Shown here piece by piece: positions 1,071 to 21,113 of a DNA stretch of 21,113 nucleotides. The notes under the pieces are model-generated. The model was given only the letters and a program-made list of their open reading frames with translations, was not told the DNA's origin and did no database searches. The first letter of the stretch is position 1. Every line of letters starts with the position of its first letter. The translations under genes were made by a program, and so were the position numbers. Source of the stretch: a virus. The stretch spans positions 1-21,113 of the IMG/VR virus record IMGVR_UViG_3300025030_001428. The stretch is one strand, 5' to 3'.

Positions 1071-1151
1071 CTTATTCTTTTCTTAAAACATAATATGCAC
1101 TCACCAGTTATTGTACTTGTCCTTATTTTTAATCTCCTGCCACAGAATAAG
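1071..1151. repeat. 8-bp inverted repeat in the intergenic gap
   Basis: CTTATTCT at 1071-1078 and its exact reverse complement AGAATAAG at 1144-1151 bracket about 65 bases. One arm abuts the start codon of the glycosyltransferase at 1070. If the mRNA pairs over this distance, initiation could be reduced. The gap also holds a 17-codon ORF (1154 down to 1101) with no recognisable product, and no convincing promoter or terminator. It could be chance in A+T-rich DNA. Confidence 0.3.
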
Positions 1152-1157
1152 CATTTT

Positions 1158-6998: not shown

Positions 6999-7789
6999 TT
7001 GAGATTCACTTTGTAAAGATATTTGTCGATTGGTTTTGAATGGTATTTACGGGTATATTTATAAAAAAGGTAGTGGTCTTGACCCCAAGGATTACCAAAT
7101 TCTTTAATTATTTTGTGGGGTTCGGCTACATGATCTACCATAAAATATTTTTGAAGTTCAGGAAACTCAAGCTGGGCTGCTGCTGAAAAATCGTAAGGTG
7201 AAGTCATCCAAAGTTCTCTTATCCCCCCATAATTAAGTGAACTGCAATCAATATTTTCGATATGATGAGGTGGGAAAGCTCCTAAGTCTTCGTAAATTGA
7301 TCTATGAAATACAAATGTTCCATTCACGATATTCCCTCCTCCAAAGACTTCATGACCCACTTTTTTCCTTTTAGGACGAAACGCAGCTCTTTGTGTGGAC
7401 ACACCATCTGAGTGGACGTGTGTACAACCGAAATTAAACATTTTGAATCTAGGAAATTTGTAGTAGAGCTTGTCCACCTCTTCGAGGTAGTTTGGTTCAT
7501 ATTCGTCATCGCTATCGAGAAGACAGAAGATTTCACCTTTCGCTGCTTTGAAGCCGTTGTTGTAGGCTGTGAGTCTTTGAAGGTTTGCTTGGTCGATGAT
7601 TTTAATCCACGGATAGTTGGGGATTTCAAGCGGAATACTACTCCCATCGTTGACAATAATGTGTTCAAAATTTCTATACGTTTGGTTTTTGATACTTTCC
7701 AAAGTTTTGGGAAATAATTTAAGTCGTCGTTCTTTTTCATGATCTTCTCCTAAATAGATTGGAGTTATAACGGAAAATCTTAGCCCCAT
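6995..7789 (-). CDS. Family 2-type glycosyltransferase with canonical DSDDE motif
   Basis: The most canonical GT2 of the window, 264 residues. FSVITPIYLGE begins at residue 5, the nucleotide-binding VNDGSS lies at 47-52, and LLDSDDEYEP at 90-99 holds the DxD. The helix before it, TAYNNGFKAAKGE, is the usual N.G...A.GE segment. The C-terminal half has a GGNIVNGTFVFHR acceptor region and a His-rich stretch (DHVAEPHK), with a GQDHYLFYKY ending, and differs from the other paralogues. It overlaps the upstream fusion glycosyltransferase by 10 bases. Such enzymes act at the cytoplasmic face or in the cytosol; donor and acceptor are not evident. Confidence 0.87.
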   Translation of the reverse strand: MGLRFSVITPIYLGEDHEKERRLKLFPKTLESIKNQTYRNFEHIIVNDGSSIPLEIPNYPWIKIIDQANLQRLTAYNNGFKAAKGEIFCLLDSDDEYEPNYLEEVDKLYYKFPRFKMFNFGCTHVHSDGVSTQRAAFRPKRKKVGHEVFGGGNIVNGTFVFHRSIYEDLGAFPPHHIENIDCSSLNYGGIRELWMTSPYDFSAAAQLEFPELQKYFMVDHVAEPHKIIKEFGNPWGQDHYLFYKYTRKYHSKPIDKYLYKVNLK

Positions 7790-8895
7790 TTTTCAGCAAA
7801 CTCAGCCTTGCTTTCATCTAAGATTTTGCCTTTGTCTGGAAGATCAGTAGCACTTGATATGTGGTGTGTCCTTACCCGCTTGCTTGAGGCATAAGTTAAT
7901 CCCACATCTTTCATCCTTTTAAGAAAGTCTAGGTCTTCACAGGAGTAGAAATATCTTTCATCAAATACCCCGATTGTTTCAACTACTATACGTTTCATAA
8001 GCACACACGAGAAGTCCTGAAATTCTGAGAAAGTTTCCTGTATATCTACTTGCATCTGAGCTTCCCGTAGCTCCTGACTTTCTATACCTCTCATCCATGG
8101 ATCATCCCGTGAATACATGGGAGTTGCCATTATCAAATCTTTGAATACAAGAGCTTCTTTCATATCCTCAAGCCAATGCTCGTAGACTTTGACATCATTA
8201 TTCATAACACAGATATATTCCCCCTGAGAAACTCTAATGCCTTGATTCACCGCATAGGCATAACCCATGTTCTCTTTGTTTTCAATGACTTTATCAGCAT
8301 GGGTATTTTCTTTACTTATTAGTGATGTTCCGTTTATTATTAGAATGATTTCGTAAGGAGTTTTATTTTTATCAGTGTGTTCTCGAATTTGCCCTATGCA
8401 ATCCCCTGTTAAATGAAGCATCTGATAAGAATTAAAGAGTGCTGGTATGATAATTGAGGTCAGTCCGCCCTTGATTACATGAGGCTCTTTTTCGCCTTCT
8501 TCTTTATGGGCGGGAAAAATGATCGTTTCTTGTGAAATCTCTTGATTTTGAGGTAATTCTGGGGCAAGAATAGCCCCTTCCTCAGCCTCTTTGTCGTCAG
8601 AGACGGACATCTGTGAAGCATCGGGAGGGACTTTGAATTGATCTACATTTTCTATCCTAATAGGCTCACCGCTTCTAAATTTCTGCAAATCTGCTCGATC
8701 TATGAAAGTTTCCTGCCCAAATGAAAATCCCAATTCTTTTAAGACTTCAGGAGAAGTAACCCAATGCTTAAATCCATCTTTTATAAGAAAGATTTTATCT
8801 CCTGATTCTTTGCTTCTAACTAACCCCTTGATATCAGGAAGTTCATTTCCGAAAGTGTCTTTGTTTGGTTCAAAATCGTTAAAATATGAATTCAT
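7780..8895 (-). CDS. Glycosyltransferase 2 with an N-terminal KHW-type repeat module
   Basis: A 371-residue two-part protein. Residues about 22-82 form one unit of a small module (KIFLIKDGFKHWVTSPEV...LGF...F...L..F.SGEPI) that resembles repeats in secreted or surface proteins of various bacteria. I recognise its look but cannot name a validated function. Residues 83-144 are a charged, Glu- and Pro-rich linker. From residue 145 there is a standard GT2 domain: LTSIIIPALFN, PYEIILIINGTS, NMGYAYAVNQG at 209-219 and VMNNDVKVYEHW at 230-241 with the metal-site Asp, then a C-terminal FDERYFYSCEDLDFLKRM acidic motif. The module may dock the enzyme to a target or partner (inference). The start overlaps the upstream HNH gene by ATGA and has no SD. 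Confidence 0.82.
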   Translation of the reverse strand: MNSYFNDFEPNKDTFGNELPDIKGLVRSKESGDKIFLIKDGFKHWVTSPEVLKELGFSFGQETFIDRADLQKFRSGEPIRIENVDQFKVPPDASQMSVSDDKEAEEGAILAPELPQNQEISQETIIFPAHKEEGEKEPHVIKGGLTSIIIPALFNSYQMLHLTGDCIGQIREHTDKNKTPYEIILIINGTSLISKENTHADKVIENKENMGYAYAVNQGIRVSQGEYICVMNNDVKVYEHWLEDMKEALVFKDLIMATPMYSRDDPWMRGIESQELREAQMQVDIQETFSEFQDFSCVLMKRIVVETIGVFDERYFYSCEDLDFLKRMKDVGLTYASSKRVRTHHISSATDLPDKGKILDESKAEFAEKWG

Positions 8896-9512
8896 ATAAA
8901 TAAAGACGGCTTAATATATTTAAAACGTATATGGCTATCTTTTATACCATGACAACGATTACATAAAGTCCAAAGATTTGATTTATCATGTGTACCACCC
9001 ATTATTCTGGGTAATTTGTGGTCACACTGTATCTTTAATGGCCCTTGTTTATTGTTACATTTAACACCGCACAATTGACAAGTCCAATTATCCCTAGCAT
9101 AAATTTCATTACGAAGTTTTCTCCACCAAGCATAACCTTTGAATATAATCTCAGTTTTAATTCTACCCCCTAACCAATTTGGAGTTTCAGAACCTCTCCT
9201 AAGCCTCATGCCCTTGTTATAACATTCTCTGCCACAATACTTTCCCCTACCATCCTTAACCCTTGATTTTGTTTCTTTAAAACTTTTTTTACAAATCGTA
9301 CAGTTTCTTTTTAAAGAAGCATTTTTAAAACCTGATCTACTATTCTCACCACTATAATTTACGGAGAGATATTTATACATACATTTCTTAGAACAACATT
9401 TTCTAATGTAATTCCTTTTAGGGTAGGAGACATGGGTAGGAGAAAATTCCATTAGAAAATGACAAATAACACAAGTAATTTCAACCTTTTTATTATTAGG
9501 ATGCCTTTTCAT
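8892..9512 (-). CDS. HNH endonuclease with two N-terminal zinc-ribbon units
   Basis: A 206-residue probable free-standing homing-type nuclease. The N-terminal half has two CxxC...CxxxC units (TCVICH with CCSKKC, then NCTICK with YCGREC), which look like DNA-binding zinc ribbons. The C-terminal domain is an HNH nuclease: ARDNWTCQLCG, then QCDHKLPRIMGGTHDKSNLWTLCNRCHGIKD, with the DH, N and final H of the beta-beta-alpha-metal site and two further CxxC pairs. It sits between a sugar dehydrogenase and a glycosyltransferase, with 4-base ATGA overlaps on both sides, so it is co-translated with genes it does not resemble. This fits a mobile endonuclease lodged in the operon. Neither neighbour is obviously interrupted, though the dehydrogenase upstream ends unusually early. 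Confidence 0.88.
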   Translation of the reverse strand: MKRHPNNKKVEITCVICHFLMEFSPTHVSYPKRNYIRKCCSKKCMYKYLSVNYSGENSRSGFKNASLKRNCTICKKSFKETKSRVKDGRGKYCGRECYNKGMRLRRGSETPNWLGGRIKTEIIFKGYAWWRKLRNEIYARDNWTCQLCGVKCNNKQGPLKIQCDHKLPRIMGGTHDKSNLWTLCNRCHGIKDSHIRFKYIKPSLFI

Positions 9513-10288
9513 TGTTTTGGATATTTTGCTAATAAATCATTGTTTATTCTTACAACCTCTTTCAAGAAGAGAGAGCCACTATAATTAGCAAATGCTTCTA
9601 AATCTTTTTTTAAGCACGTTCCGCCAGCTCCCCTCCCGCCTTTATGGGAAATAATGTTATGTCCTCTTAATCCCCAAGGATGATTTTCTCCTATGATTTT
9701 TAAAGTTTCATAGTTTGCACCATTAGTTTGACAAACATTAAACATTTCATTTGAAAAAACTACTTTATTTGCAAACCATACATTGAGATAATATTTGCCT
9801 GTCTCTGCTGTTATGTTATCTGTGATTACAGGCTTACAATATTTATATCTTCCCATATAAAGCCCTTTTACACGCTCTATATGTTTTTGGCTTCTTCCAC
9901 CTATGACTATCATTCTAGGGTTCTTAGCATCTTTTTCCCAAGTATCTTCTGAGAGAAATTCAGGGTTTGATACTACTCTATCCATTTTAAGTTCATTCAT
10001 CACATAATCTGCAAATCCTGGGTAAACAGTGCTTCTAATGATATATGTTGAATCCGCATACCTAGGATAGGATTCTAACTGTTTGATGATATCAAAAATC
10101 AATGAGGTATCACACTGTCCATTTATCGTAGGTGTAGGAAGACAAATGAAAATAAAGTGGCATTTTGAGGCTTCTTCGAGAGTGACATTCGCATTGTGCC
10201 TCGAAAATCCCTTTTTAATGCCAAAAGCTAGAGATGTTGCTTTACCTACATAGCCTGTAGAACCTATGACTGCTGCATCATCACCCAT
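9509..10288 (-). CDS. Short UDP-glucose/GDP-mannose dehydrogenase-family protein lacking the C-terminal domain
   Basis: A 259-residue member of the family that oxidises the C-6 alcohol of an NDP-sugar to an acid using 2 NAD+. Seen: AVIGSTGYVG at 6-15 (NAD site), FICLPTP at 47-53, RSTVYPG at 85-91, SNPEFLSED at 107-115, AETGKYYLNVWFANKV at 161-176, and GGRGAGGTCLKKDLEAF at 217-233. The residues corresponding to the known catalytic set are all present: Thr87, Glu110 and Glu114, Lys165, Asn169, Cys225 and Asp229. The usual enzyme has about 400-450 residues; here the protein ends 34 residues after the nucleophilic Cys, so the C-terminal nucleotide-sugar domain is missing. It may be a reduced but active enzyme, may need a partner, or may have been cut by the HNH gene that follows. 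It overlaps the GT4-like gene by 8 bases. Confidence 0.85.
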   Translation of the reverse strand: MGDDAAVIGSTGYVGKATSLAFGIKKGFSRHNANVTLEEASKCHFIFICLPTPTINGQCDTSLIFDIIKQLESYPRYADSTYIIRSTVYPGFADYVMNELKMDRVVSNPEFLSEDTWEKDAKNPRMIVIGGRSQKHIERVKGLYMGRYKYCKPVITDNITAETGKYYLNVWFANKVVFSNEMFNVCQTNGANYETLKIIGENHPWGLRGHNIISHKGGRGAGGTCLKKDLEAFANYSGSLFLKEVVRINNDLLAKYPKQ

Positions 10289-11615
10289 AGAATATTGGTA
10301 AATAGAACTTTTTGAATACTGAATCTAAATTACGTTCTTTTCTTACCCATGTCCTTTGGGCTTGTTCAGGAAGTTTAAGTCGTGCAAGTATTTGTCCTGC
10401 AGTACCTCTATGGTAGCTTTGTTCTGCACTCTTACGAGCCTCTTCAGGCAACTTATCATCTCCATATTTAGTCCCAGTCCATGAATCGGCAGTCCTCGAA
10501 TCAGCAAGATCAGCTTGTACGTCAAAAGCACTACTATATTTTTTATAGATAGGATTATCACCATAAATAGCCCTGAAAGGCGGGAAATCTTTATTAAGTA
10601 CAGCTATATTCCCACATAACATAGCTTCCTGTGCAATTAGGGAATAAGTCTCACTTACGGAGGGAAGGATAAAGACATTTGAAATTAACTGAAAATCACG
10701 GACTACGTTTTGGGGAACTTCCTGTGTCCATTCATCAGATTGTTCAGAAGTCCAAATCAGTTCATCTTGGGAAAGACCATAATCTATAGCTACATTTTTA
10801 CATTTATCTCGGTAAGCAATTTTCTCTACCCCCGTTGAGTGGAAGTCAATTATAATAAGTCTAATTTTTAATCCAAACTCTTTGAGCATGGACATAGTTT
10901 TAATAACATACTCAACTTGTTTCCCTGTATCAAGCCTGATAGGATAAGTACAAATAGCATCTGCTGAGAGAATGTCTTTGTCGTAAATTACTCTTTCTGA
11001 TTCACGATCCATTCCCAAAAACCCACAAATATCGGTTGCGTGAGGGATATGTTTAACCTTATCTTCTGGTACTCCGTAGTTCTTGGCTACTGCTGGAATC
11101 GTATAGGGTTCTGGGTAAATATAGAGGGAATTGGGAAATTCTTCTCGTATAAGCTGGGGATATTCGTCTTTAAAGATTCCCACTACCTGATTAACAAGTG
11201 AGGGAGAGGTAGCAGAATGTATCCAATGCAGCCATTTAAGGTTAGGGAGGGCTTTGGCTACTCTACGGGAGGCGAAATTATGTTTTAAACAAGCTGGCTG
11301 GTAAATAATATCGTGAGTTAATACTATATCTTTGTCTTTGAGAATCTCCAAAAGACGTTTCTCCATTTCAGCTACATCAGAATCAAAAGTTTCGTCTTTT
11401 TTAACTTCATTGTGGCAGGGAACATTGGGTATGTACTCTATTTTGACTTTGGGGTGGGCATAGATTCCTTCGGGTTCAAAAGTATCATGTACTATAACTG
11501 TAGGCTCAAAATCGTTTAAGAGAAGCATTTTAATCTGAGACTGAACGATGATATTGAGGCTGTATGCCTTTTGATTGTCAGAAAAACTCGTGGATAAACA
11601 GACTTTTTGAGGCAT
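10281..11615 (-). CDS. GT-B glycosyltransferase (family 4-like), first gene of the glycan operon
   Basis: A 444-residue retaining-type glycosyltransferase with two Rossmann domains. The C-terminal half carries the family hallmarks: YPIRLDTGKQVEYVIKTM at 224-241 (the Arg and Lys that contact the donor phosphates, with an Asp-Thr before the Lys), and LPSVSETYSLIAQEAM around 317-332, an EX7E motif (Glu322 and Glu330). The N-terminal half has WLHWIHS and HIPHATDI, typical of GT4 acceptor and hinge regions. It is the first gene after the virion genes and has its own promoter. The predicted transcript would start on the A of the ATG at 11615, and there is no SD. It may add the first or a linking sugar; the substrate is unknown. 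Confidence 0.85.
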   Translation of the reverse strand: MPQKVCLSTSFSDNQKAYSLNIIVQSQIKMLLLNDFEPTVIVHDTFEPEGIYAHPKVKIEYIPNVPCHNEVKKDETFDSDVAEMEKRLLEILKDKDIVLTHDIIYQPACLKHNFASRRVAKALPNLKWLHWIHSATSPSLVNQVVGIFKDEYPQLIREEFPNSLYIYPEPYTIPAVAKNYGVPEDKVKHIPHATDICGFLGMDRESERVIYDKDILSADAICTYPIRLDTGKQVEYVIKTMSMLKEFGLKIRLIIIDFHSTGVEKIAYRDKCKNVAIDYGLSQDELIWTSEQSDEWTQEVPQNVVRDFQLISNVFILPSVSETYSLIAQEAMLCGNIAVLNKDFPPFRAIYGDNPIYKKYSSAFDVQADLADSRTADSWTGTKYGDDKLPEEARKSAEQSYHRGTAGQILARLKLPEQAQRTWVRKERNLDSVFKKFYLPIFYG

Positions 11616-11650
11616 TATCTAACGCTAACATATTTGGGTATACTTGTCAA
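11616..11650 (-). promoter_or_regulatory. Promoter for the glycan operon, predicted leaderless
   Basis: On the minus strand a perfect -35 (TTGACA, 11650-11645) is followed after 17 bases by TAGCGT (11627-11622), which keeps the most conserved T1, A2 and T6 of the -10 box. Six bases later comes the ATG at 11615, so a start 7 bases after the -10 would make the first base of the mRNA the A of the start codon. The gap of about 43 bases between the virion genes and the glycan genes holds nothing else. The weak -10 core is the main doubt. Confidence 0.55.
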
Positions 11651-11658
11651 TACGCACT

Positions 11659-11967
11659 TTAATTATAAAAGATAGTAGCCTCTGCATTTCCTGAGGATTG
11701 TTCAAGTTCCGCAAAAATTCCCTTTTTCATCAGAATTGGTGAATCGGGATTAAATGGAGTAGATTCTCCTCCATTGGCTGCTACTAGAAAACTATCAAGT
11801 AAGTTTTTACCACTAGCTGAATCTGAAATTCTTACTACCGCACCACCTGATCCCCCAGTTACTAATACTGAGGTTACCTCATTGCCTCCTCCTGTTGCAA
11901 TCTGCAAAGAGGTTCTTGTTCCGTTTAACACTGTCTTGTATCTACTAGCACTGGTTTTTGTCAACAT
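11659..11967 (-). CDS. Small beta-rich protein, probably virion-associated
   Basis: A 102-residue protein that I do not recognise. It is Gly-, Ser- and Thr-rich with alternating hydrophobic residues (SLQIATGGG, SVLVTGGSGGAVVRISDSAS, ATIFYN), which points to a beta-sandwich. It contains no Cys, and has no signal peptide or transmembrane segment. It is the last gene before the glycan promoter and begins 1 base after the zinc-finger gene, so it belongs to the virion-accessory group. A small head- or fibre-associated protein is plausible from place and composition only. Confidence 0.6.
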   Translation of the reverse strand: MLTKTSASRYKTVLNGTRTSLQIATGGGNEVTSVLVTGGSGGAVVRISDSASGKNLLDSFLVAANGGESTPFNPDSPILMKKGIFAELEQSSGNAEATIFYN

Positions 11968-11968
11968 A

Positions 11969-12442
11969 TTACATTGCTACTCCCCTAATAGGGGAGTCAT
12001 CTTCTATCTGCATAGTTATCCCACCACTTTCAAGGTGTTTTTTTTCAGCTTCCTCCCTTAGACGTTCAATCTCTTCATTTGATAAAGGCTCAGTAGTTTT
12101 CTCTGATACTACTTCTATGCCTAGTTCATCTGTCATTTTTTCTTCAGATTCGTGCTTTCTGTTATGCCCTTTTAAAGCAATCTCTACACTTGTTGAAAAG
12201 TCACATTTCCCACACTTAAAGGCTCTGTTTTTTTTAGCAGCTAGATAACTTCCTACTTCTTCTTTAGTTTCTAAAACTTTAAGAAATTCATATAAATGTA
12301 AGAGGTCATCTGCTACCTCATCACTTTCAATCTTACGCATAGAATCCACTTCAAAGGACTTATCCTTGAAAAGGGTTTGCCCTTTTACCTGGACATTCTT
12401 GATGTCTGCTCCGTCTTCTGGGTTTAAAAGTATTTTTGCCAT
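11969..12442 (-). CDS. Unknown protein with a classical C2H2 zinc finger
   Basis: A 157-residue acidic, mostly helical protein. Residues 75-97 contain F-x-C-x2-C-x12-H-x3-H (FKCGKCDFSTSVEIALKGH then NRKH), with ligands Cys77, Cys80, His93 and His97 and the Leu two residues before the spacing to His93. This is the exact spacing of the eukaryote-type C2H2 finger. The N-terminal part (MAKILLNPEDGADIKNVQVKG) looks beta-rich; the C-terminal part (EEIERLREEAEKKHLE) is a short charged helix. The finger could bind nucleic acid or a protein, or serve only structurally. The gene lies between a Ser/Thr-tail gene and a small beta protein, with no SD before its ATG. Confidence 0.75.
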   Translation of the reverse strand: MAKILLNPEDGADIKNVQVKGQTLFKDKSFEVDSMRKIESDEVADDLLHLYEFLKVLETKEEVGSYLAAKKNRAFKCGKCDFSTSVEIALKGHNRKHESEEKMTDELGIEVVSEKTTEPLSNEEIERLREEAEKKHLESGGITMQIEDDSPIRGVAM

Positions 12443-12446
12443 ATTT

Positions 12447-12917
12447 TTAAAGAGTTGTTGTTGTACTAGTTGTTGTACTTGTACTCGTGCTAGATGAACT
12501 TGATGTACTAGAACTGGTACTAGTTGTGCTTGTACTAGTGCTAGTCGTACTTGTAGAAGTAGATGTAGTTGTAGTCATAGCTCCTGCAAACCAAGCCCCA
12601 TTTACATAAATTTTTAGATTATCATTGTCTGTATCATAATACCAATCTCCCGATCTTGGCCCCGTTGGATCATCTGCTTGATCTCTAATTGCTGAGGCTA
12701 AAGCCGAAAAATGAGTTCCAGGAGCATTGGAAGTCTCATTATCAAACGGCAGTACAGGAGTTCCTGTAAACTTAAATCCTATCCATGTATTTCCCGTGTA
12801 ACGGAATAAAGAGTTATTGTCCTCATCATAAAACATCTCTCCTGTAATTGCAGGTGATGGAGGAGTACTTTGTATCCTTATTCTCCCTGTTATTTCACTA
12901 AAATGACTTTTACTCAT
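12447..12917 (-). CDS. Virion-accessory-like protein with two GxxYY modules and a Ser/Thr tail
   Basis: A 156-residue protein. It has two copies of a short module common in phage tail-fibre and head-fibre proteins: GEMFYDEDNNSLFRYTGNTW at 26-45 and GDWYYDTDNDNLKIYVNGAW at 90-109. The spacer between them includes a DPTGPRSG loop. From residue 115 to 155 the chain is only Ser and Thr, ending in Leu. It is a paralogue of the next gene upstream, which has one module and a longer tail. The pure Ser/Thr tail lacks hydrophobic residues, so it should be extended and exposed, and suited to O-glycosylation by the enzymes encoded next door (inference). There is no SD; its ATG follows the upstream stop by 2 bases. 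Confidence 0.72.
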   Translation of the reverse strand: MSKSHFSEITGRIRIQSTPPSPAITGEMFYDEDNNSLFRYTGNTWIGFKFTGTPVLPFDNETSNAPGTHFSALASAIRDQADDPTGPRSGDWYYDTDNDNLKIYVNGAWFAGAMTTTTSTSTSTTSTSTSTTSTSSSTSSSSSTSTSTTTSTTTTL

Positions 12918-13180
12918 ATTTATACAGTAGTTGTTGTTGACGTACTACTGGACGTACTAGTGCTTGTACTGGTTGTTGTTGATGTTGAACTGGACGTACT
13001 CGTTGTTGAAGTACTAGTCATGGTTGTACTCGTAGAGGTAGTCCTCGAAGTAGAAGTACTCGTACTCGTGGATGTTGAGGTAGTCCTCGAAGTAGATGTG
13101 CTCGTAGAGGTTGAAGTAGTACGAGAAGTAGATGTGGTGGTCGACGTACTCGTTGAACTTGAAGATGAAGTTGAAGTTGT
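12450..13180. repeat. Simple-sequence Ser/Thr codon tracts in two adjacent genes
   Basis: Two low-complexity blocks (about 12450-12575 and 12923-13180) are built from repeated ACT/ACA/AGT/TCT/AGC/ACG codons, giving recurrent GTAC, ACTAGT and TCGAGGAC words on one strand or the other. The tracts share no gene boundary, so they are internal coding repeats. They are candidate sites for length variation between related phages. Confidence 0.6.
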
Positions 13181-13324
13181 AAAAGCAAGACCTACCCAAT
13201 TAGTCCCGTTATACCGCATGAAACGATTGTTAGTAGTATCATAATACATTTCCCCTGTTACAGGAGAAGTTGGATTTGATGTTCCTGTTGGTATTGACCC
13301 AGCTAGATTTGAAAAAGATGTCAT
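12920..13324 (-). CDS. Virion-accessory-like protein with one module and an 85-residue Ser/Thr tail
   Basis: A 134-residue protein. Residues 24-45 form one copy of the module (GEMYYDTTNNRFMRYNGTNW) seen twice in the next gene. From 49 to 133 the sequence is almost entirely Ser and Thr, broken only by Arg68, Arg80, Arg94 and Met102; SRTTSTSTSTST-like units repeat at 12-14 residue steps. The corresponding DNA is a simple-sequence tract that could expand or contract by slippage. A strong SD (AAAGGAG, about 5 bases before the ATG) shows it is meant to be well translated, as expected for a structural protein. A role as an exposed head or tail decoration and glycan acceptor is inferred. Confidence 0.74.
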   Translation of the reverse strand: MTSFSNLAGSIPTGTSNPTSPVTGEMYYDTTNNRFMRYNGTNWVGLAFTTSTSSSSSTSTSTTTSTSRTTSTSTSTSTSRTTSTSTSTSTSTSRTTSTSTTMTSTSTTSTSSSTSTTTSTSTSTSSSTSTTTTV

Positions 13325-13358
13325 ACTATCTCCTTTGTAAGTTCGGTTAAGGATACTC

Positions 13359-13375
13359 GGCCTTGGAGTAAGACC
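13359..13375 (-). other. Small RNA hairpin downstream of the capsid gene
   Basis: In the 63-base gap after the capsid gene, the minus strand reads GGTCTT-ACTCC-AAGGCC, a 6-bp stem with one G-U pair and a 5-base loop. No U-run follows, so it is not a standard terminator. It could modulate expression between the abundant capsid protein and the next gene, or be chance. Confidence 0.25.
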
Positions 13376-13387
13376 TACGCTACCCTA

Positions 13388-14308
13388 TTAGTCTGAAAAT
13401 GCTGCTCCATCGCCTTTACTTGCCCAAATTCCATGCCAATCGCTCCAACCTCGTGACAATCTCATGGTTGATTTATAGACTGCGTATTCAGTGTCAAAGA
13501 GTTCATCGTTCTTAAATTCTGGTCTCCTTCTCCAGAACCATGTAAGTGTCCCCCGTCCTTGAACGGTTGACTTATCAACTAAAAACCATGCTGTAGCTGA
13601 AGTGAGATACTTCCAGACCATAATATCGAGCATTCCTTTATAGAAGTTTGCGTCATTGTCTGCTGTCCCTTGTCTTAGGGTAGAATCAATTACTAAGTGG
13701 GCTGTTTTATTAAGTTGGCGTGGGACTAAGAGTTTGTCTGCTGTTACATCTATAATTTGTCCTCTGTCATCTAGTTGGCCTTCAACTGCAAGCCGTCCCG
13801 TTTCTAAATTATCTTCTGTAAAAGTAATACCTGTTGAGGAGGCATTTGATTGTGCTGTCCCTCCATCAGGTCGAGGGTGAGATGTTGAGAATATTGGTTT
13901 CCCATCTCCGCCCAAGTATGATGTTGAAAATCCATTTATGAAGACGTTTGCTGCTTGGTTTTCAGCTCCTCTTCGCATTGCCCTGCCCATTTCAGCAGGT
14001 CTTCGAGAAACGATTCTGTGAAGATCGTCTTCGATGGCTTCACGGGTTACTTTGAATCCAAGAGTGTATTTTTTGTGGCGATAGGTTACATCATACCCTT
14101 GATAGACTTGGTCGTAAGTTACTGGTTCGCCTTCCCCTGTTTCAAATGGAAGGGCAAAGCCTCCATAAGAAGAATCACGCTCTGTGTCTTTTTCTGAAGT
14201 GTTAACCGCAAAAATACTTTCAAGCATCAATGGCTCTTCAGCGTATCCATCATCGAATATCTTGTGAAATCCTGGTGTTAATGCGTCTGCAAAATGTCCT
14301 CTATCCAT
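13388..14308 (-). CDS. Major capsid protein, Mu gpT-like HK97 fold
   Basis: A 306-residue protein that forms the icosahedral head shell. The length and motifs agree with the Mu-like major head subunit (gpT) family: a short N-terminus without a long delta domain, VTYRHKKYTLGFKVTREAIEDD near residues 74-95, then GGDGKPIFSTSHP (around 133-145), which is a strongly conserved stretch of this family, and a C-terminal Trp-rich region (TLTWFWRRRPEF). It follows a scaffold and a probable decoration gene in the usual head-gene order and begins 1 base after the preceding stop. No SD is obvious, so translation may rely on coupling. Confidence 0.88.
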   Translation of the reverse strand: MDRGHFADALTPGFHKIFDDGYAEEPLMLESIFAVNTSEKDTERDSSYGGFALPFETGEGEPVTYDQVYQGYDVTYRHKKYTLGFKVTREAIEDDLHRIVSRRPAEMGRAMRRGAENQAANVFINGFSTSYLGGDGKPIFSTSHPRPDGGTAQSNASSTGITFTEDNLETGRLAVEGQLDDRGQIIDVTADKLLVPRQLNKTAHLVIDSTLRQGTADNDANFYKGMLDIMVWKYLTSATAWFLVDKSTVQGRGTLTWFWRRRPEFKNDELFDTEYAVYKSTMRLSRGWSDWHGIWASKGDGAAFSD

Positions 14309-14309
14309 A

Positions 14310-14909
14310 TTAAGCGGCTATTTTAGCTGTTGCCGTATCCAGCGGGCCTGGCCCATATTGACATTCATTTACTATAAATATTCCTTTTGAAGCATCTGCG
14401 TCTCCATCTGGATCAATCTCAATCAACTGAAATTGTCCACTTGCGTCTGAAGCTGTACCTGTTGCGATCTGATCTCCACCTGCATCTGTGTCAAAGAATT
14501 GACCTAAATTCGCTTGAGCCAGCGAGCCATCTGTATCGTTGTACCATTTTGAATTGAGACCCCATGTTATTGCTACTCTTGCTTTTAATTTGCGTGTTGC
14601 GTCTGAAGTATTAGTTGAAGAAGTTAAAACTGTGTCGTCACCTGTAAGGGTAGCGCCTGAAGTTCCGCCTGCACGTCCTGTTTCAAAGACGTTGATTCCA
14701 TCCTGATCTACTATTCCCATCAAGATTCCAAGAACTGATCCACCCGCTGCAACTACATCTACATTTCCGTCTGCATCAATCGTAACGGCATCTCCTACTG
14801 TAAGTGTTGCTGAGTCATCAATTAAGAAGTCTGTTAAGACAGGAGAAGAACTCACTCCTAAAAGTGATCCTCTGTAGTAAAATCCTTGTGTTCCGCTTGA
14901 TAGTGCCAT
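14310..14909 (-). CDS. Probable capsid decoration / head-stabilising protein
   Basis: A 199-residue Gly/Ala/Asp/Thr-rich protein. The N-terminal half has short beta-forming stretches and a repeated DDSATLTVGDAVTID pattern seen in phage head-decoration and DUF2190-like proteins. The C-terminal half has QFQLIEIDPDGDADASKG. Its place just before the major capsid gene and after the scaffold gene is that of decoration proteins (lambda gpD position), and composition agrees. I cannot assign a family with certainty. The ATG is preceded by AGGA inside the upstream stop region and starts 1 base after it. Confidence 0.6.
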   Translation of the reverse strand: MALSSGTQGFYYRGSLLGVSSSPVLTDFLIDDSATLTVGDAVTIDADGNVDVVAAGGSVLGILMGIVDQDGINVFETGRAGGTSGATLTGDDTVLTSSTNTSDATRKLKARVAITWGLNSKWYNDTDGSLAQANLGQFFDTDAGGDQIATGTASDASGQFQLIEIDPDGDADASKGIFIVNECQYGPGPLDTATAKIAA

Positions 14910-14910
14910 A

Positions 14911-15669
14911 TTATTTTCCTAGATATTCTATGTAATCTTTCTCTGCGATCCCTAGCTTCTTCGCTGCTATTTTCTGTTTATCAGTCAACACTACTTCTTT
15001 AGAGTTGGCTGACGAAGAAGGTATAGATCCTATCATTCCTGTATTGTTAGCTGAGGCTTCTACGATCCCCCTCAATCGGGCTTGTTCTTCACTATCACCT
15101 GATGTTGCTAACTTATACGCATTTTCAAAGTACATTGGGAGCCTGCTCAGTGGAACCTTTAGCATAAGATCATTTATGTTTTCGCCTGATCCATAAGGGT
15201 CTAACATCAGTTGAAGATGTCCTCCTACGGCATTTCTCAAGGCTTTTGCTTTTTCAGGTTCCAGACTTTTGATTCCGTATCTCTCTTCAAACCTATCTAT
15301 AATGTTGTCTCTTATAAATAGTTTTGACTCATCTGGAGCCACTTTGCCGTTTGAATCTCCCTTTTCAGGAGTCTCTACTTTCTTTTTGATTGCTTCAAAA
15401 AGTTCAGGGTCAGACTCTATTACTGTTCCTAATTGCTCCCACTTTTTAAGGTTCTCTGCTAGTGCTTCTCGTTCTTTTTTGGTATCTCCAAGTTCTTTTC
15501 CTTGTTCTCCTAGCTTTTTACTTAATTCTTGATAAGATTTCAGAATTTCTTCTGTTGACTTACCTTCGAATTTGTTTTCTTTGGGTGCTTGTCCTTCTAT
15601 AGGGGCTTCTTCTTTCGTGGATTTGTCCTCTTTGGGATCCTTTACTAGTTCTTCAACTGGGTCTGGCAT
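14911..15669 (-). CDS. Capsid scaffolding protein
   Basis: A 252-residue very polar protein with the form of a scaffold: an N-terminal Lys/Glu/Pro-rich disordered part, a helix with coiled-coil character from about 34 to 80 (FEGKSTEEILKSYQELS is a familiar scaffold-like segment), and a C-terminal region ending in LTDKQKIAAKKLGIAEKDY. No protease active site is visible, so it is a scaffold without a fused protease. The role is to guide capsid protein assembly into procapsids and then leave. A good SD (GAGG, 9 bases before ATG) supports the start. It lies directly before the decoration and capsid genes. Confidence 0.78.
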   Translation of the reverse strand: MPDPVEELVKDPKEDKSTKEEAPIEGQAPKENKFEGKSTEEILKSYQELSKKLGEQGKELGDTKKEREALAENLKKWEQLGTVIESDPELFEAIKKKVETPEKGDSNGKVAPDESKLFIRDNIIDRFEERYGIKSLEPEKAKALRNAVGGHLQLMLDPYGSGENINDLMLKVPLSRLPMYFENAYKLATSGDSEEQARLRGIVEASANNTGMIGSIPSSSANSKEVVLTDKQKIAAKKLGIAEKDYIEYLGK

Positions 15670-15706
15670 ACAGATTATCCTCAGTCTTAGTTATATCCTA
15701 GAAGCG

Positions 15707-15952
15707 TTAAACAGTCGAGGGCATTGACAGAGTAGACATTGACGGACAAAAGCTGCAGGGCTTTGTGGGATTTGTATGCTTTTGGTGTCTCCTTGCCATC
15801 TTATATTTCTCTGTCTTTCGGTATAAATCATAATAACCAGTATAAAGAGACCAAATATATTGGCGTGACCTATCAAAAATACGCCCAATATCAGCAAATG
15901 TCTTGCCTTGATTACGAAGACTATGTACTATTTCACGATTTACTTTGACCAT
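15707..15952 (-). CDS. Small helix-turn-helix protein
   Basis: An 81-residue basic protein. Residues about 6-40 read as a homeodomain-like HTH (REIVHSLRNQGKTFADIG then RIFDRSRQYIWSLYTGY), as in resolvase or transposase-type HTH units. The C-terminal part has basic residues and a lone CxxC (KPCSFC at 65-69), which could be the remnant of a zinc or HNH domain. The start overlaps the stop of the 33-aa gene by 1 base (TAATG), indicating coupling. A DNA-binding regulator placed in the head operon, or a decayed homing endonuclease, are both possible. Competing frames over the same DNA lack such features. Confidence 0.6.
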   Translation of the reverse strand: MVKVNREIVHSLRNQGKTFADIGRIFDRSRQYIWSLYTGYYDLYRKTEKYKMARRHQKHTNPTKPCSFCPSMSTLSMPSTV

Positions 15953-16053
15953 TATTTCTTTTTTCCTTTCATTTTAGCTGCTTTAGCAGCCTTATAACCA
16001 GCTTTTGTGTACGGAAAGTGTTTGACTTTCCCACCAACTTTAACTCTAGGCAT
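15952..16053 (-). CDS. 33-residue Lys-rich phage peptide
   Basis: A short ORF beginning with ATG at 16053 and ending with TAA at 15952. It encodes MPRVKVGGKVKHFPYTK followed by AGYKAAKAAKMKGKKK. Eleven of 33 residues are Lys, with one Arg and one His. An AAGGA lies about 12 bases upstream. It overlaps the preceding gene by 8 bases and the next by 1 base, so it fits the operon tightly, which supports it being real. Similar tiny KVGGK-FPYTK-G proteins are familiar from phage head regions; a nucleic acid-binding or head role is only a guess. Confidence 0.65.
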   Translation of the reverse strand: MPRVKVGGKVKHFPYTKAGYKAAKAAKMKGKKK

Positions 16054-16369
16054 CTTTTACCACTTCCTTTCGTTTCTCAATTTCATTTTCTCTTCTTTCG
16101 ATTTCTTCTGAAGCTGACATTATTATCCTCCCAAATTGTGTATACCCCCCAGCCCGACCTCTCGCATTAGCTTTTAAGACTGCCAAATCGGGGTCATTCT
16201 CTCTTATCCTAAAAACATAATTCTTCTCATAATCAACTAAAATCTTAGTTATTTCAACCAAAGTCTCAAAATCCTTATTATGGGCTATCCCTGAAAGGAA
16301 TTGAAGCTGTTTAATGCTTAATTTTGAAAGAATATCTCTTTCTACTGGTGAAAGTTTTTGTTCAGCCAT
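16046..16369 (-). CDS. Conserved-looking phage protein of unknown function
   Basis: A 107-residue helical, charged protein without a recognised domain. It begins MAEQKLSPVERDILSKLS and ends in a KR/E-rich helix (SEEIERRENEIEKRKEVVKDA). It starts 1 base after the portal stop and overlaps the Lys-rich peptide by 8 bases, so it is part of the packaging/head operon. The position after the portal is compatible with a head accessory protein, but no motif supports a specific role. Confidence 0.65.
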   Translation of the reverse strand: MAEQKLSPVERDILSKLSIKQLQFLSGIAHNKDFETLVEITKILVDYEKNYVFRIRENDPDLAVLKANARGRAGGYTQFGRIIMSASEEIERRENEIEKRKEVVKDA

Positions 16370-16370
16370 A

Positions 16371-18590
16371 TTATCTTGACCCTGTCCCCAAATTTAATGA
16401 AGGTATTATATTCCCTACTGTCGCTGATGGTTGAGCCATTCCGCCTGGCCTATTAGTAATTCCTGCTGACGCTGACGAAGCTGCTGGCTGGCCTGTTTCT
16501 TCTGGTACTGCCCCCTCTGGAGGCTGTCCGCCACTACCCTGAGCACGCCCAGTCTGAGCCATTATTTCTCCTACTACATGATCTGTAAAGATATTTGTCC
16601 GTGGATCTTCGGCTGGGAATTGTTTTTGAAATTCATCTGAGTTCATAAATTCCAAATGCACCCTCGTATGGGCAGGGGAGGCAAAAGGAGTTGGGGGAAC
16701 GGGTCTTCCTTGCATCATTTGTTTATTTTCAAGCCCCGCAAGCTCAATCATTTGTTCTAAGCGTTGTGATTGTTCGTCCTGAATGGCTTGGTCGGGTTTG
16801 AGAGCGTTTGGATCATAATCATAGAGCTGGGCGGTCTTGTCTCCGAGCTTAACTGGGTCATAAGAACCTGGAAAAGTTTGAGCAATCATAAATAATCGAT
16901 CAAAAAGTTCTAAGCCTTGTGTTCTCATTAAAGGTTTTGAGATTTCAAGGTTTGAAGAGGCATCAAATTTAATATCATACCCTCCACGAGCCATCGGAAG
17001 GTAATATTCAGGTCGTGCAAGGAAAAAATCCCTTCCTGGTTTAGTTTCGAGCTTAGGTTCGCCTGTTTTGGTATCAAAATTCATAGTTTCATTCTCTAAA
17101 GGTATAGTTCGAAAGTCCATTCGGAACATATCACGGCCTTTCTCAACTAAAAGACCTTGATTCTTGAGTTTTGCTATCTCCGCTTCATATGCTTGGGTTT
17201 GTCTATCGCCTATAATTTTCTCCATTTTAGGTTGGGGGTAGAATTGCAGAATATTTGACGTCCTAAGACGTGCTAAACGTATAAGAGATTCACGTTTCAT
17301 TAACCAAACCTTTAATCTAAGTCGTTTAAGGGTGGCTTCTTTAAGCATTGCGGCCTCAGTTGCGGTTCCTGCCTGTGGTAGAGCCTGGGCTCGGGGGTTA
17401 ATCCCAGTTGAGATGATACCGTCATCGCTTAAATGCTGGAGTTGGACTTCTACTGAGCGGGGAACATCCCCATATTCGACTGGCTTGGCTGAGTTTACAT
17501 CCCCAACTGGGATCATTCCGTGAGGTCGAGCCATCAAGTCTTCATCTGAGAACGCAAGACGGTCTGAAACGAGGAACATCTTATCTATATCTAAATGGGC
17601 TCGGTCAATCAACATCCGTCTCATGGTATCTGACTCATCTTGAATTGATTCCAAAAGCTCACATTCGCCTTTTCCATAGAATCTGTGAGTTCTTTTAATA
17701 TCGATCCACCTCACAAAAGGAAGTTGCTTATGCTTGTAGGGATTGGAGCCGTCAAATAGAAGGACATCGTTTGCAACGATTACAAGTCTGTCTCTTGGGC
17801 TTCTGGCCCAATACCACAAAACCTCGCATTCTTTGTCGGTATTTATTCCTTGAGGGGGTTGGTAAAACTCGTAGTAATTTGTATCTCCTCCAGCTTTCAC
17901 GTATTTAACATTCCCGAGTTTATTCCATGTATCATTATCAAAAAATAACTTAATGTCATCTACGTTTTGAATGTATCTCCTAATACAATCTCGGACAGCA
18001 AACGAACCAGTAAAACCTCTTGCCTTCTCATCTACATAAAAGTCTTGAAGTTTTACAATCTCCCCCATTACGTCATCATACTCGGCTACCGTTCGTTCAC
18101 TCTCTTTACCGTCTTTAGTGTCGGTGATTTTTTTCATGTCTTTTAAGTAATACTCTTGGGTGATGGCCGTCCCAAACATAAGGGCATCTTTAAGGGCCTC
18201 GTAGGTGAGCATGTCTGAGTCAGAAACCTCCCATGAATAGTCAAAAATTCTCTGCATAACCCTTGCTTTGGCTTCATCTTCCGTTCCACGAGGAAGGACT
18301 AAGGGACGCATGTTTTGTTCTGTAAGTTCCGATAGAGCGGTTTCAACTATCGAAAGCGAAAGAGGGACGGTGTGGCGTGACTGCCATTCTTCTTTCTGGG
18401 AGTCTTTAGCTTTCCAACCCATTCGCCCTTCATATTGTTTCTCCCACTTGTCAGCGTCCTTCATAGCATCCTGACGGTCAGGAGAGGATTCCATGTCAAA
18501 CTTTCGGTTATAGACAAACTTAATCGTCTCCCTCTCTGCTTCGGAAGGATTGTAATCGGTTCTTATTTTTGGTTCTTTAGGTTCTGGCAC
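16371..18590 (-). CDS. Phage portal protein
   Basis: A 739-residue protein forming the dodecameric ring at the head vertex through which DNA is packaged. The central stretch has the portal hallmarks: THRFYGKGECELLESIQDES at 301-320, followed by a helix with DTMRRMLIDRAHLD, then the GINPRAQALPQAGTATEA loop at 396-413. The length resembles large P22-type portals. The C-terminal tail beyond about residue 680 is Gly/Pro/Ala/Gln-rich and disordered. The start codon is GTG at 18590, since the first in-frame ATG would lose 32 residues. It is preceded by an extended -10 promoter, 15 bases downstream of the terminase gene. Confidence 0.88.
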   Translation of the reverse strand: MPEPKEPKIRTDYNPSEAERETIKFVYNRKFDMESSPDRQDAMKDADKWEKQYEGRMGWKAKDSQKEEWQSRHTVPLSLSIVETALSELTEQNMRPLVLPRGTEDEAKARVMQRIFDYSWEVSDSDMLTYEALKDALMFGTAITQEYYLKDMKKITDTKDGKESERTVAEYDDVMGEIVKLQDFYVDEKARGFTGSFAVRDCIRRYIQNVDDIKLFFDNDTWNKLGNVKYVKAGGDTNYYEFYQPPQGINTDKECEVLWYWARSPRDRLVIVANDVLLFDGSNPYKHKQLPFVRWIDIKRTHRFYGKGECELLESIQDESDTMRRMLIDRAHLDIDKMFLVSDRLAFSDEDLMARPHGMIPVGDVNSAKPVEYGDVPRSVEVQLQHLSDDGIISTGINPRAQALPQAGTATEAAMLKEATLKRLRLKVWLMKRESLIRLARLRTSNILQFYPQPKMEKIIGDRQTQAYEAEIAKLKNQGLLVEKGRDMFRMDFRTIPLENETMNFDTKTGEPKLETKPGRDFFLARPEYYLPMARGGYDIKFDASSNLEISKPLMRTQGLELFDRLFMIAQTFPGSYDPVKLGDKTAQLYDYDPNALKPDQAIQDEQSQRLEQMIELAGLENKQMMQGRPVPPTPFASPAHTRVHLEFMNSDEFQKQFPAEDPRTNIFTDHVVGEIMAQTGRAQGSGGQPPEGAVPEETGQPAASSASAGITNRPGGMAQPSATVGNIIPSLNLGTGSR

Positions 18591-18605
18591 AATTTAATTA
18601 TATCA
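18591..18605 (-). promoter_or_regulatory. Extended -10 promoter for the portal gene, predicted leaderless
   Basis: The minus strand carries TGA-TATAAT (a TGN extended -10; the TATAAT is 18602-18597) followed by exactly six bases and the GTG start at 18590. No -35 is recognisable at 15-18 bases, but an extended -10 can do without it. There is no SD before the GTG. The TGN bases fall at 18605-18603, just past the terminase stop codon at 18606. The same six-base spacing occurs at two other genes of this window. Confidence 0.5.
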
Positions 18606-20096
18606 TCAATATAAATACTTCGGTTTATAGTATCCAGTCTTCTTGCGGGGCGGGTGGATAAAGTCGAGAGCATAAGAAAAGGCATCAATCATGTCATCGT
18701 GCTGGTTACGGGGATACTCTTTAAGTTCTGCCTCAAAGTAGTAATTAAAGGGATTTTCCTTGTAATGAAAGACTTTCTTATTATAGTAGAGAGGCTGAAG
18801 CCCCTGAATCCGAAGGTCTTTAGATCGTTCATGAGGCTGGATTTCAGAAATAGGTAGGTATCTGTGGCGTTTATTCATTTCCTCCCTCAGAGAATAGGCT
18901 AGAGCCTTCTGATAGGCAACTGTCTCAAGGCCGATGTGATTAGGATGCCAAGTCTCAGCCATCTCAAAAATCTTTCCTATTAACTGTGCTGGCTGGACTC
19001 TTGCCCTCCAGATATCTAATATAAAGATATTTGACCATTCATCCACCCCGCAGACTATCATCGCTGTATAATCGGCTCCCTTTTCAAGTGAAATCGCAGG
19101 GTCAATAGTCATAATCTTTGTCAGATTCTTACCTCGGATATCTGTGGGATCGTAATACTTAAACCATTCTTGTTTGAATTTAGCATCCTCTTCTGGGACG
19201 GGATTATTTTGATATTGTGAGCTAAATTGGTACCAGCCTTCTTCCCGAAGTCGGGTCTGAAGTTCTTTTAGAGAGAACTTTTGAGGCCATAATGCCTGAA
19301 ACTCTTCTCCTGTTTCGATGTTCCCTTCAAAGGCTTTTAAGACCATCGTATCAAAAGACTGGCTTACGTTATTCTCAGGGTTTTGGATCCATCCGTATAA
19401 ATCTTCAACTGCCCAGCGTGTCCCAATGACGATCAACTGCCCCCCTGGTTCAAGAAGATCAAGAGTATCCTTGTAGCGGTCTATTACTTTTTTGATTTGT
19501 TCAGCGGATTGAGAATTGTCCCGATTGTGAGGGTCATCAATTATAATAAGGTCAGGATGGGAACCTACTAGATTACTTTCAATTCCTGTAGCCCAGACTG
19601 TCGGGCCTTTTATGTTTTGGTCTGTTCTCGATAACGTGATTCGGTCTGCTGACCATTCACCCGCACCCTGTGAGAGGTCGCCAAAAAGTCGGTGGATAGT
19701 TTCATTTTGCTGGAGATGTCTCTTAATCTCTGAAATAAAATCAACCGCAGTCTGCCAAGTAGCCGAAAGGATCAGGATTCGGATATTGGAATCGTTGATG
19801 ATTCGAAAGACCGAGTAGCCTATTGTCACAAGAGCACTCTTTAAATGATTACGGGGAATTAAGATAAGTTTTTTTTTATCCCTGCCATCGGTTACAAAAT
19901 GACACATCTCCTTGTGAAATGGGGCAAGTTTTACTTTTCCCTTCCCTTGTTCTATACCCAGGATATATTTATTAAAAATGTATAAATTAGATTTCCCTTT
20001 GTCTGAAAGGATTTTGTCCTGTAGCTGACGCTGCTTAATCAGCTCATCTGCTAACAGTTCTTTGTTTTCGTTGACTACAATGTTATCTAAATCCAT
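18606..20096 (-). CDS. terL: Terminase large subunit
   Basis: A 496-residue packaging motor ATPase-nuclease. The frame is open back to a TTG at 20129, but the ATG at 20096 gives a natural start (MDLDNIVVNENKELL) and only a 14-base overlap with the upstream gene. Numbered from this ATG: Walker A IPRNHLKS at 80-87 (an Arg-x-His-x-Lys-Ser variant of the terminase P-loop), Walker B LIIIDD at 183-188 and GTRW near 225-228. The nuclease domain has TIDPA at 330-334 (metal-binding Asp332), IGLETVAYQK with Glu391, and QHDDMIDA with Asp467/468 near the end. ATPase and RNase H-like nuclease parts are both complete. It lies before the portal as usual. Confidence 0.92.
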   Translation of the reverse strand: MDLDNIVVNENKELLADELIKQRQLQDKILSDKGKSNLYIFNKYILGIEQGKGKVKLAPFHKEMCHFVTDGRDKKKLILIPRNHLKSALVTIGYSVFRIINDSNIRILILSATWQTAVDFISEIKRHLQQNETIHRLFGDLSQGAGEWSADRITLSRTDQNIKGPTVWATGIESNLVGSHPDLIIIDDPHNRDNSQSAEQIKKVIDRYKDTLDLLEPGGQLIVIGTRWAVEDLYGWIQNPENNVSQSFDTMVLKAFEGNIETGEEFQALWPQKFSLKELQTRLREEGWYQFSSQYQNNPVPEEDAKFKQEWFKYYDPTDIRGKNLTKIMTIDPAISLEKGADYTAMIVCGVDEWSNIFILDIWRARVQPAQLIGKIFEMAETWHPNHIGLETVAYQKALAYSLREEMNKRHRYLPISEIQPHERSKDLRIQGLQPLYYNKKVFHYKENPFNYYFEAELKEYPRNQHDDMIDAFSYALDFIHPPRKKTGYYKPKYLY

Positions 20097-20565
20097 TTTG
20101 TACTTTAGGTTTGGCAAGAATATCGGCAAAATCTATCGCATCCATAACCTTGTCTTCAATAGCCCTCATATCAAACACAGGGACAAAAGAGGGCTCAATA
20201 CCCCTGGCATACCAGGAGTTTTTCGAATCCCTGACCCAAACTACTATCCCTTTCTTGGTTTGAGTTAGTTTTATAAGATACCCTTTAGGAAGTTTAATCC
20301 CTAAAAGCGTCACATTACCCCACCCTATAAGGCCTTGTTTGTATTCTTCGTCTGAGAATTTTCTTTTACGGGTAATTTCTTCTAACTGGTCAGATTTTTC
20401 TTTATCTTGTTTCTTATCGTCTTCCTTTTGGAGTTCTTGGGTGGCTTTAATTCCCCTATCTTCAGATTCATGACCCAGTTCTTTAATCCGTTCTTCCCAC
20501 TCAAATGCTTTTTTTAAGTTTTCTCTTTGCTTTTCTAAAATAGTCTTCTCAACCATATCAACCAT
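20083..20565 (-). CDS. Charged protein upstream of the terminase; small terminase candidate by position
   Basis: A 160-residue protein without a recognised domain. The first 75 residues are highly charged and helical, with coiled-coil character (KTILEKQRENLKKAFEWEER and a Lys/Glu/Asp/Gln-rich run at 43-70). The rest looks beta-alpha (GWGNVTLLGIKLPKGYLIKL, GIVVWVRDS). A small terminase subunit often sits here, but its usual HTH is not visible, so the assignment is positional only. The ATG at 20565 has no SD; a second ATG at 20556 is possible. A TATAAT lies 10 bases before the first ATG. Confidence 0.6.
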   Translation of the reverse strand: MVDMVEKTILEKQRENLKKAFEWEERIKELGHESEDRGIKATQELQKEDDKKQDKEKSDQLEEITRKRKFSDEEYKQGLIGWGNVTLLGIKLPKGYLIKLTQTKKGIVVWVRDSKNSWYARGIEPSFVPVFDMRAIEDKVMDAIDFADILAKPKVQNGFR

Positions 20566-20575
20566 GTCAATATCT

Positions 20576-20581
20576 ATTATA
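20576..20581 (-). promoter_or_regulatory. Possible -10 box upstream of the 160-residue protein
   Basis: A perfect TATAAT on the minus strand ends 10 bases before the ATG at 20565. No -35 matches at 15-18 bases, and the TG lies one base out of register for an extended -10. If used, the 5' leader would be only 3-4 bases. The remainder of the 102-base gap holds C/T and A runs with no gene. Confidence 0.3.
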
Positions 20582-20667
20582 CACTAGGATTTCCGACAGC
20601 CATACCCCCCTTTTTTAGAAAAATATATTCCGTATTTAAACACAGCCTACCCCTATTTTTTCTTAAT

Positions 20668-21045
20668 TTAAAGAGGGGGTCGGCCCCCTTTGTGTGAATT
20701 AACGGTTTCAATCCTATGACAGTTTGGGCAGAGAACCCTTACATTTCCAGGAATATAACCAAGCTCAGGTTTGATTCTATGCCTATCGCAGTAAGCCTTA
20801 TCCCAACCGCATTCTTCGCATTTCTTATTCGGAGTGTGCTTTAGAAGAAAAAAATTCTTTCTATTTGTTTCAGCGTCCAGCATATAAGGCATTCCATATT
20901 TGAGGCAGTGGTGCATATCACAAACGGTACTATACCGCTTCAGACCTTTGGTATTCTTTCCTCTATACCTTTGCAACCTATCACAGCCTTGAACCAAACA
21001 GATACCTCTAATCAATCCCTCCCCGTGCTTTCTCCATTTAGTCAT
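20668..21045 (-). CDS. HNH endonuclease near the terminase
   Basis: A 125-residue HNH nuclease. The frame stays open to a TTG at 21081, but the ATG at 21045 is preferred because a consensus promoter lies between the two; the TTG falls inside the -35 box. The N-terminal part has CLVQGCDRLQRY and VCDMHHCLKYGMPYM, a Cys/His set that may bind zinc. The HNH core is KKCEECGWDKAYCDRHRI, then GYIPGNVRVLCPNCHRIE, with Asp-Arg-His in place of the usual D-x-H-H, an Asn and the final His. HNH proteins beside the terminase are known to assist DNA cleavage during packaging in HK97-like phages; here this is inferred from location. A homing endonuclease is the alternative. Confidence 0.85.
   Translation of the reverse strand: MTKWRKHGEGLIRGICLVQGCDRLQRYRGKNTKGLKRYSTVCDMHHCLKYGMPYMLDAETNRKNFFLLKHTPNKKCEECGWDKAYCDRHRIKPELGYIPGNVRVLCPNCHRIETVNSHKGGRPPL
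20674..20689 (-). other. GC-rich hairpin at the 3' end of the HNH gene
   Basis: AGGGGG and CCCCCT form a 6-bp stem with a 4-base loop, inside the last codons of the HNH gene. On the minus strand it is followed by CTTTAAATT rather than a U-run, so it is at best a weak terminator or attenuator after the HNH gene. Confidence 0.25.
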
Positions 21046-21051
21046 ACCCCA

Positions 21052-21081
21052 ATTATAACACAAAAGAGGTACTATTGTCAA
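21052..21081 (-). promoter_or_regulatory. Consensus sigma-70-type promoter for the HNH gene, predicted leaderless
   Basis: The minus strand has a perfect TTGACA (21081-21076), an 18-base spacer and a perfect TATAAT (21057-21052). Six bases later is the ATG at 21045, so transcription starting 7 bases after the -10 would begin on the start codon itself. It is the strongest promoter in the window and also rules out the TTG start at 21081. Confidence 0.78.
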
Positions 21082-21092
21082 GAAAATATCAG

Positions 21093-21108
21093 CTGTATTT
21101 ATTTACAG
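21093..21108. repeat. Small palindrome upstream of the HNH promoter
   Basis: CTGTA-TTTATT-TACAG forms a 5-bp inverted repeat about 12 bases upstream of the -35 box. It could be a repressor or activator site, or part of a terminator of a gene outside the window. The arms are short, so chance is possible. Confidence 0.3.
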
Positions 21109-21113
21109 TCTTA

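Follow-up and report, generated by a model that had tools for sequence, protein, structure and literature searches.

In a family of tailed phages, genes that open particular operons are preceded by sigma-70-type promoters with only six to eight bases between the -10 hexamer and the start codon. The host polymerase would very probably begin transcription from them at the start codon or no more than two nucleotides away, and in this the phages would resemble their probable hosts, Patescibacteria. Although leaderless genes as such are long familiar, their predicted use at the openings of certain operons in an uncultured phage family, matched by a similar excess in Patescibacteria, appears undescribed in the literature searched. 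The DNA analysed (the window) is a complete record, a virus contig of 21.1 kb, and the genome-wide motif test was therefore run on its relatives. Its tailed-phage gene set comprises a terminase, an SU10/P22-like portal and a Mu gpT-like capsid protein, followed by glycosyltransferases and sugar enzymes (Table 1). The latter form a long series (234-11615, with a DegT-type aminotransferase, an epimerase and a UDP-sugar dehydrogenase) and contain a second HNH gene (8892-9512), while a pair of proteins whose long tails are rich in Thr and Ser (TST) is encoded after the capsid gene (12447-13324). A search for Rfam families in the window was negative, as were tRNA searches of the window and of 19 related loci.

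Table 1. Promoter elements and genes of the window discussed in the text
Feature	Position	Strand	Remark
-35 TTGACA, HNH promoter	21076..21081	-	
-10 TATAAT, TGT before hexamer (extended -10)	21052..21057	-	18-bp spacer, N6 to ATG
HNH endonuclease gene, predicted leaderless	20668..21045	-	weak HNH matches
-10 TATAAT, N10 before ATG of 160-aa gene	20576..20581	-	short leader at best
160-aa gene, function unassigned, precedes large terminase gene	20083..20565	-	
Terminase large subunit	18606..20129	-	phrog_38, E 1.4e-109
Extended -10 TGATATAAT, between terminase stop and portal start	18597..18605	-	N6 before GTG
Portal protein gene, GTG start, predicted leaderless	16371..18590	-	SU10_portal match
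Major capsid protein gene (Mu gpT-like)	13388..14308	-	
-35 TTGACA, glycosyltransferase promoter	11645..11650	-	
-10 TAGCGT, TGT before hexamer	11622..11627	-	17-bp spacer, N6 to ATG
Glycosyltransferase gene, opens glycan cluster, predicted leaderless	10281..11615	-	Glycos_transf_1

The first-pass annotation had read TTGACA-18-TATAAT-N6-ATG at 21045, TGATATAAT-N6-GTG at 18590 and TTGACA-17-TAGCGT-N6-ATG at 11615, all on the minus strand and all without a Shine-Dalgarno (SD) site; the three arrangements are present at these coordinates, and inspection of the sites bears out the missing SD. An extended -10 had been recorded for 18590 only, where it does occur (TGA), and the TG one base upstream of the hexamer is found at 21045 (TGT) and 11615 (TGT) as well. 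Of all sigma-70-type matches in the scanned region 2000-21113, the HNH promoter at 21045 scores highest (12/12); the glycosyltransferase promoter combines a perfect -35 and the TGn with a weak hexamer that agrees with TATAAT at only 3/6 positions. At the portal site the hexamer occupies 18602-18597 within TGATATAAT, the TGA representing the TGn; there is no good -35 at this site, so that only the TGn supports a promoter. The portal start is well constrained, since the reading frame is closed by a TAA two codons before it and conservation of the protein sets in within a few codons, and so is the glycosyltransferase start, with an in-frame TAG two codons upstream and a conserved block beginning a few codons downstream. 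No homologs of the HNH gene at 21045 were found, which leaves its start unconstrained by homologs. A fourth TATAAT, reported ten bases before 20565, is indeed there, but at N10 it is a short-leader site at best rather than a leaderless one; distant homologs of the 160-aa gene have -10 N6 starts in three loci (L009, L055 and L056).

The statement that other genes of the window have strong SDs holds for 13324, 4833 and 4151, where both the SD and its spacing are good, but SDs are few: many window genes have neither an SD nor a promoter, and AT-rich sequence is general ahead of starts in this genome. Taken together, promoter-like sites are no commoner in the window than in shuffled sequence (48 compared with 54 ± 8.5), and hence it is the fixed distance from -10 to start, held across relatives, that constitutes the evidence.

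Portal, glycosyltransferase and capsid sequences served as queries against the viral collection and recovered the relatives. They form a syntenic family whose capsid proteins are mostly 48-62% identical to that of the window; the closest capsid within the phage collection, that of an unclassified podovirus from Manatee Spring, reaches 36%. The family tests cover about 104 related loci, all environmental sequences, and use ORFs of at least 70 aa, with start codons picked mechanically as each ATG or GTG within the first 25 codons and near-identical upstream regions dropped. ATG/GTG codons deep within genes, upstream sequence reshuffled by a first-order Markov model, other distances and outgroup phages served as controls. 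An excess of the motif over shuffled sequence had been named beforehand as the test of the pattern, and across the family it is found: complete or extended -10 promoters at d = 6-8 (d being the number of bases between the end of the -10 and the start codon) number 108 versus 10.9 ± 2.5 in shuffles, about tenfold. Promoters with a perfect TTGACA occur 12, 15 and 9 times at d = 6, 7 and 8 (36 in total), mostly 0-1 times per bin at larger distances, and at no internal ATG at d = 6-8, and the extended -10 at d = 6 is found at 28 starts versus one internal ATG; the perfect TTGACA and the extended -10 TG were themselves partly search criteria. T at -17, which is outside the TG and hexamer criteria, is present in 40 of the 57 d = 6 starts, fitting the TRTGn extended -10, and a pyrimidine, the favoured base class at -1, directly precedes the start codon at 42 of the 57. 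The outgroup is negative, with 1/575 starts in nine phages (of Roseobacter, Alcaligenes, Pelagibacter, Caulobacter, Planktothrix, Pseudomonas and Lentibacter, and two of unknown host) against 105/1863 in the family (Fisher P 1e-11). Mean G+C is 0.50 in the outgroup and 0.41 in the family, yet even the AT-rich outgroup members have no more than one such site, and differences in composition are accounted for by the shuffles.

The sites recur at particular genes. Counting leaderless-type starts at d 5-9, they precede the small terminase gene (TerS) in 14/27 orthologs (SD in one), the gene after the capsid gene in 15/58, the portal gene in 10/55 and the 160-aa gene in 5/17, as against 0/64 for the capsid gene (SD in 33), 1/63 for g199 (SD in 36) and 2/52 for g252 (SD in 26). 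The sites of the 160-aa and portal genes differ among relatives, and the majority of portal orthologs have none. Strong SDs accompany one of 74 leaderless-type starts and 282 of 1049 others, a difference that is partly geometric because the -10 sits in the SD position. Since the sites recur at TerS, portal, post-capsid gene and glycosyltransferase, and not at capsid or g199, the proposed division of the window into HNH, portal/head and glycan transcription units is supported by position. At the post-capsid position of the TST-tailed proteins, relatives have similar genes, often opened by a leaderless-type promoter.

For the glycosyltransferase, the geometry is retained in 16 of 45 distinct orthologs, the rest having an SD or no recognised signal. 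The near-identical contig L003 has the same promoter as at 11615, and the more distant L004 has TTGACA-17-TACCTT-N8-ATG before its glycosyltransferase and TGGTATACT-N6-GTG at its small terminase gene. Further orthologs show TTGACA-18-CATACT-N6 (L018), TTGACC-17-TAGAGT-N6 (L025), TTGACA-18-TACGCT-N7 (L022 and L023) and TTGACA-17-TATCCT-N7 (L029), while L024, L031 and L033 have an SD in place of the promoter motif. An asparagine synthase-like gene (PF00733) of another relative (L087, 17225-18226) starts after TTGACA-17-GATAAT-N7-ATG.

HNH genes of two relatives are similarly preceded, by TTTACA-17-TATAAT-N7-ATG in L038 and by TTGACA-17-TACAAT-N7-ATG in L034. In the latter, a phage contig binned with a Zambryskibacteria MAG, an insert at 2046-3729 splits the capsid gene and matches a group I intron (Rfam RF00028, 78.7 bits); the HNH gene of the insert is encoded on the other strand, and it is this gene that the leaderless-type promoter precedes. 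When this HNH protein was compared with that of the window, relatedness did not go beyond chance. A promoter of its own would allow a mobile endonuclease to be expressed at any site of insertion. The window HNH gene ends in a stem-loop with a T-rich tail (20674-20689), which would close the HNH transcription unit.

The host of the family is probably a member of the Patescibacteria. Among cellular sequences, the capsid protein has its best relative (52%) on a 4.1-kb phage contig (L034) in a Zambryskibacteria MAG, one of 380 Patescibacteria genomes searched. This MAG has 27 promoter sites at d = 6-8 compared with 3.5 expected, with a peak at d = 6, and 19 other Patescibacteria genomes, not picked for the pattern, have 18 compared with 4.8 expected; GC-matched Eremiobacterota/Auribacterota have 4 compared with 5.3 expected and no peak. 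Over 145 Patescibacteria genomes, counts of the pattern are 572 at N6-7 and 276 at N16-17; read backwards it is found 54 times, which was too weak a control, so that the shifted distance N16-17 was used instead; in 28 genomes of the phylum of the Eremiobacterota MAG it was counted 116 versus 92 times. The four Patescibacteria genomes in which the pattern is most frequent (G066, G141, G082 and G121) show the peak too, but were chosen for it and are left out of the evidence. The Patescibacteria excess suggests that the phages follow a promoter habit of a host from this group, and the geometry, put forward earlier as a clue to host type, would thus point to Patescibacteria rather than to the classical leaderless groups.

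That the promoters are real and leaderless while the hosts lie elsewhere, for example in another leaderless-rich lineage, is less likely but by no means remote. The d = 6 peak in the Zambryskibacteria MAG and its absence from the comparators of two other phyla argue against it, although these comparators are Eremiobacterota/Auribacterota, whereas the phyla known to be rich in leaderless genes are Actinobacteria and Deinococcus-Thermus (PMC3160421), and the link consists of a single small phage contig, which could be misbinned, in a single Patescibacteria MAG. Patescibacteria are for these reasons a best guess and not proof. DNA comparison of the window with the 380 Patescibacteria genomes gave short imperfect matches only (69-93% identity) and no clear spacer match, the best spacer-like one lying in an aminotransferase gene, and a portal profile had no match among genome contigs. 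A match in G060 at the HNH promoter, considered as a spacer, was rejected as promoter-to-promoter similarity with a palindromic spacer.

The host RNA polymerase would use TTGACA, a spacer of 17-18 bp, often a TGn, and TANNNT, with the last base of the -10 placed 6-8 bp before the start codon. Bacterial RNA polymerase usually initiates about 7 bp downstream of the -10, so that with N6 the +1 would be the first base of the start codon, its A or G, and with N7-N8 it would fall within two bases of it. A promoter that abuts the start codon in this way would yield an mRNA with neither leader nor SD, for which translation would follow the leaderless route and start with a 70S monosome and initiator tRNA. 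Leaderless promoters would open the small terminase, portal, post-capsid, glycan cluster and HNH operons, and genes within the head operon would mostly rely on SD sites or tight coupling. The family-wide excess at d = 6-8 and the negative outgroup support this leaderless interpretation, first made for the window, in which the transcript ends are predicted from the geometry. Could the -10-like hexamers instead be AU-rich elements that enhance translation by non-SD initiation, with the true promoters further upstream? The commonness of AT-rich sequence before starts and the many genes with neither SD nor promoter would suit such elements, but they would not need a perfect TTGACA tied to the hexamer at the canonical 17-18 bp, as in the 36 cases at d = 6-8, nor the extended -10 TG and the unselected T at -17, and this reading is improbable. 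Chance, by which AT-rich sequence would yield TATAAT-like strings near some starts, agrees with the lack of an overall excess in the window but can hardly explain the tenfold enrichment over shuffles in the family and the near-absence of the sites from AT-rich outgroup phages.

It is about as likely as not that Patescibacteria and their phages have leaderless operon starts in common, the phages matching their hosts, and that the -10-to-start distance could be used as a sequence-only host marker. Phages of Patescibacteria have scarcely been cultured and host links are hard to establish; such a habit would provide a host clue for uncultured viruses, correct start-codon calls and reveal a reliance on leaderless initiation at the openings of operons, both in a bacterial lineage with minimal genomes and in its viruses. 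In the open-licence literature searched, no earlier report of leaderless genes in Patescibacteria was found. In temperate phages leaderless transcripts arise from promoters abutting the start codon, as for lambda cI; the phage promoters described here are placed alike, but lambda cI is a single regulatory gene, whereas here several structural, packaging and glycan operons are concerned across a lineage. A survey of 953 bacterial genomes described leaderless genes that carry a TA-like signal some 10 bp ahead of their start codon and highlighted Actinobacteria and Deinococcus-Thermus (Zheng et al., 2011; PMC3160421). As there, a -10-like signal just before the start replaces the SD, and SD-led and leaderless genes are mixed in one genome; unlike there, the genes belong to a phage family and to Patescibacteria, and TTGACA at 17-18 bp or an extended -10 is common, both being partly search criteria. 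A further parallel in geometry is that of the -10-motif genes of Deinococcus-Thermus, in which TANNNT located 6-7 bp upstream of the ORF gives rise to leaderless mRNA and a -35 at 17 bp strengthens the promoter (PMC12340547), leaderless mRNAs being translated by 70S initiation (literature cited in PMC12340547). The distances of both elements are alike in the phage family, but in D. radiodurans about one third of genes carry the -10 motif, with transcript and reporter data (PMC12340547), whereas here it marks only selected operon-opening genes, known from sequence alone.
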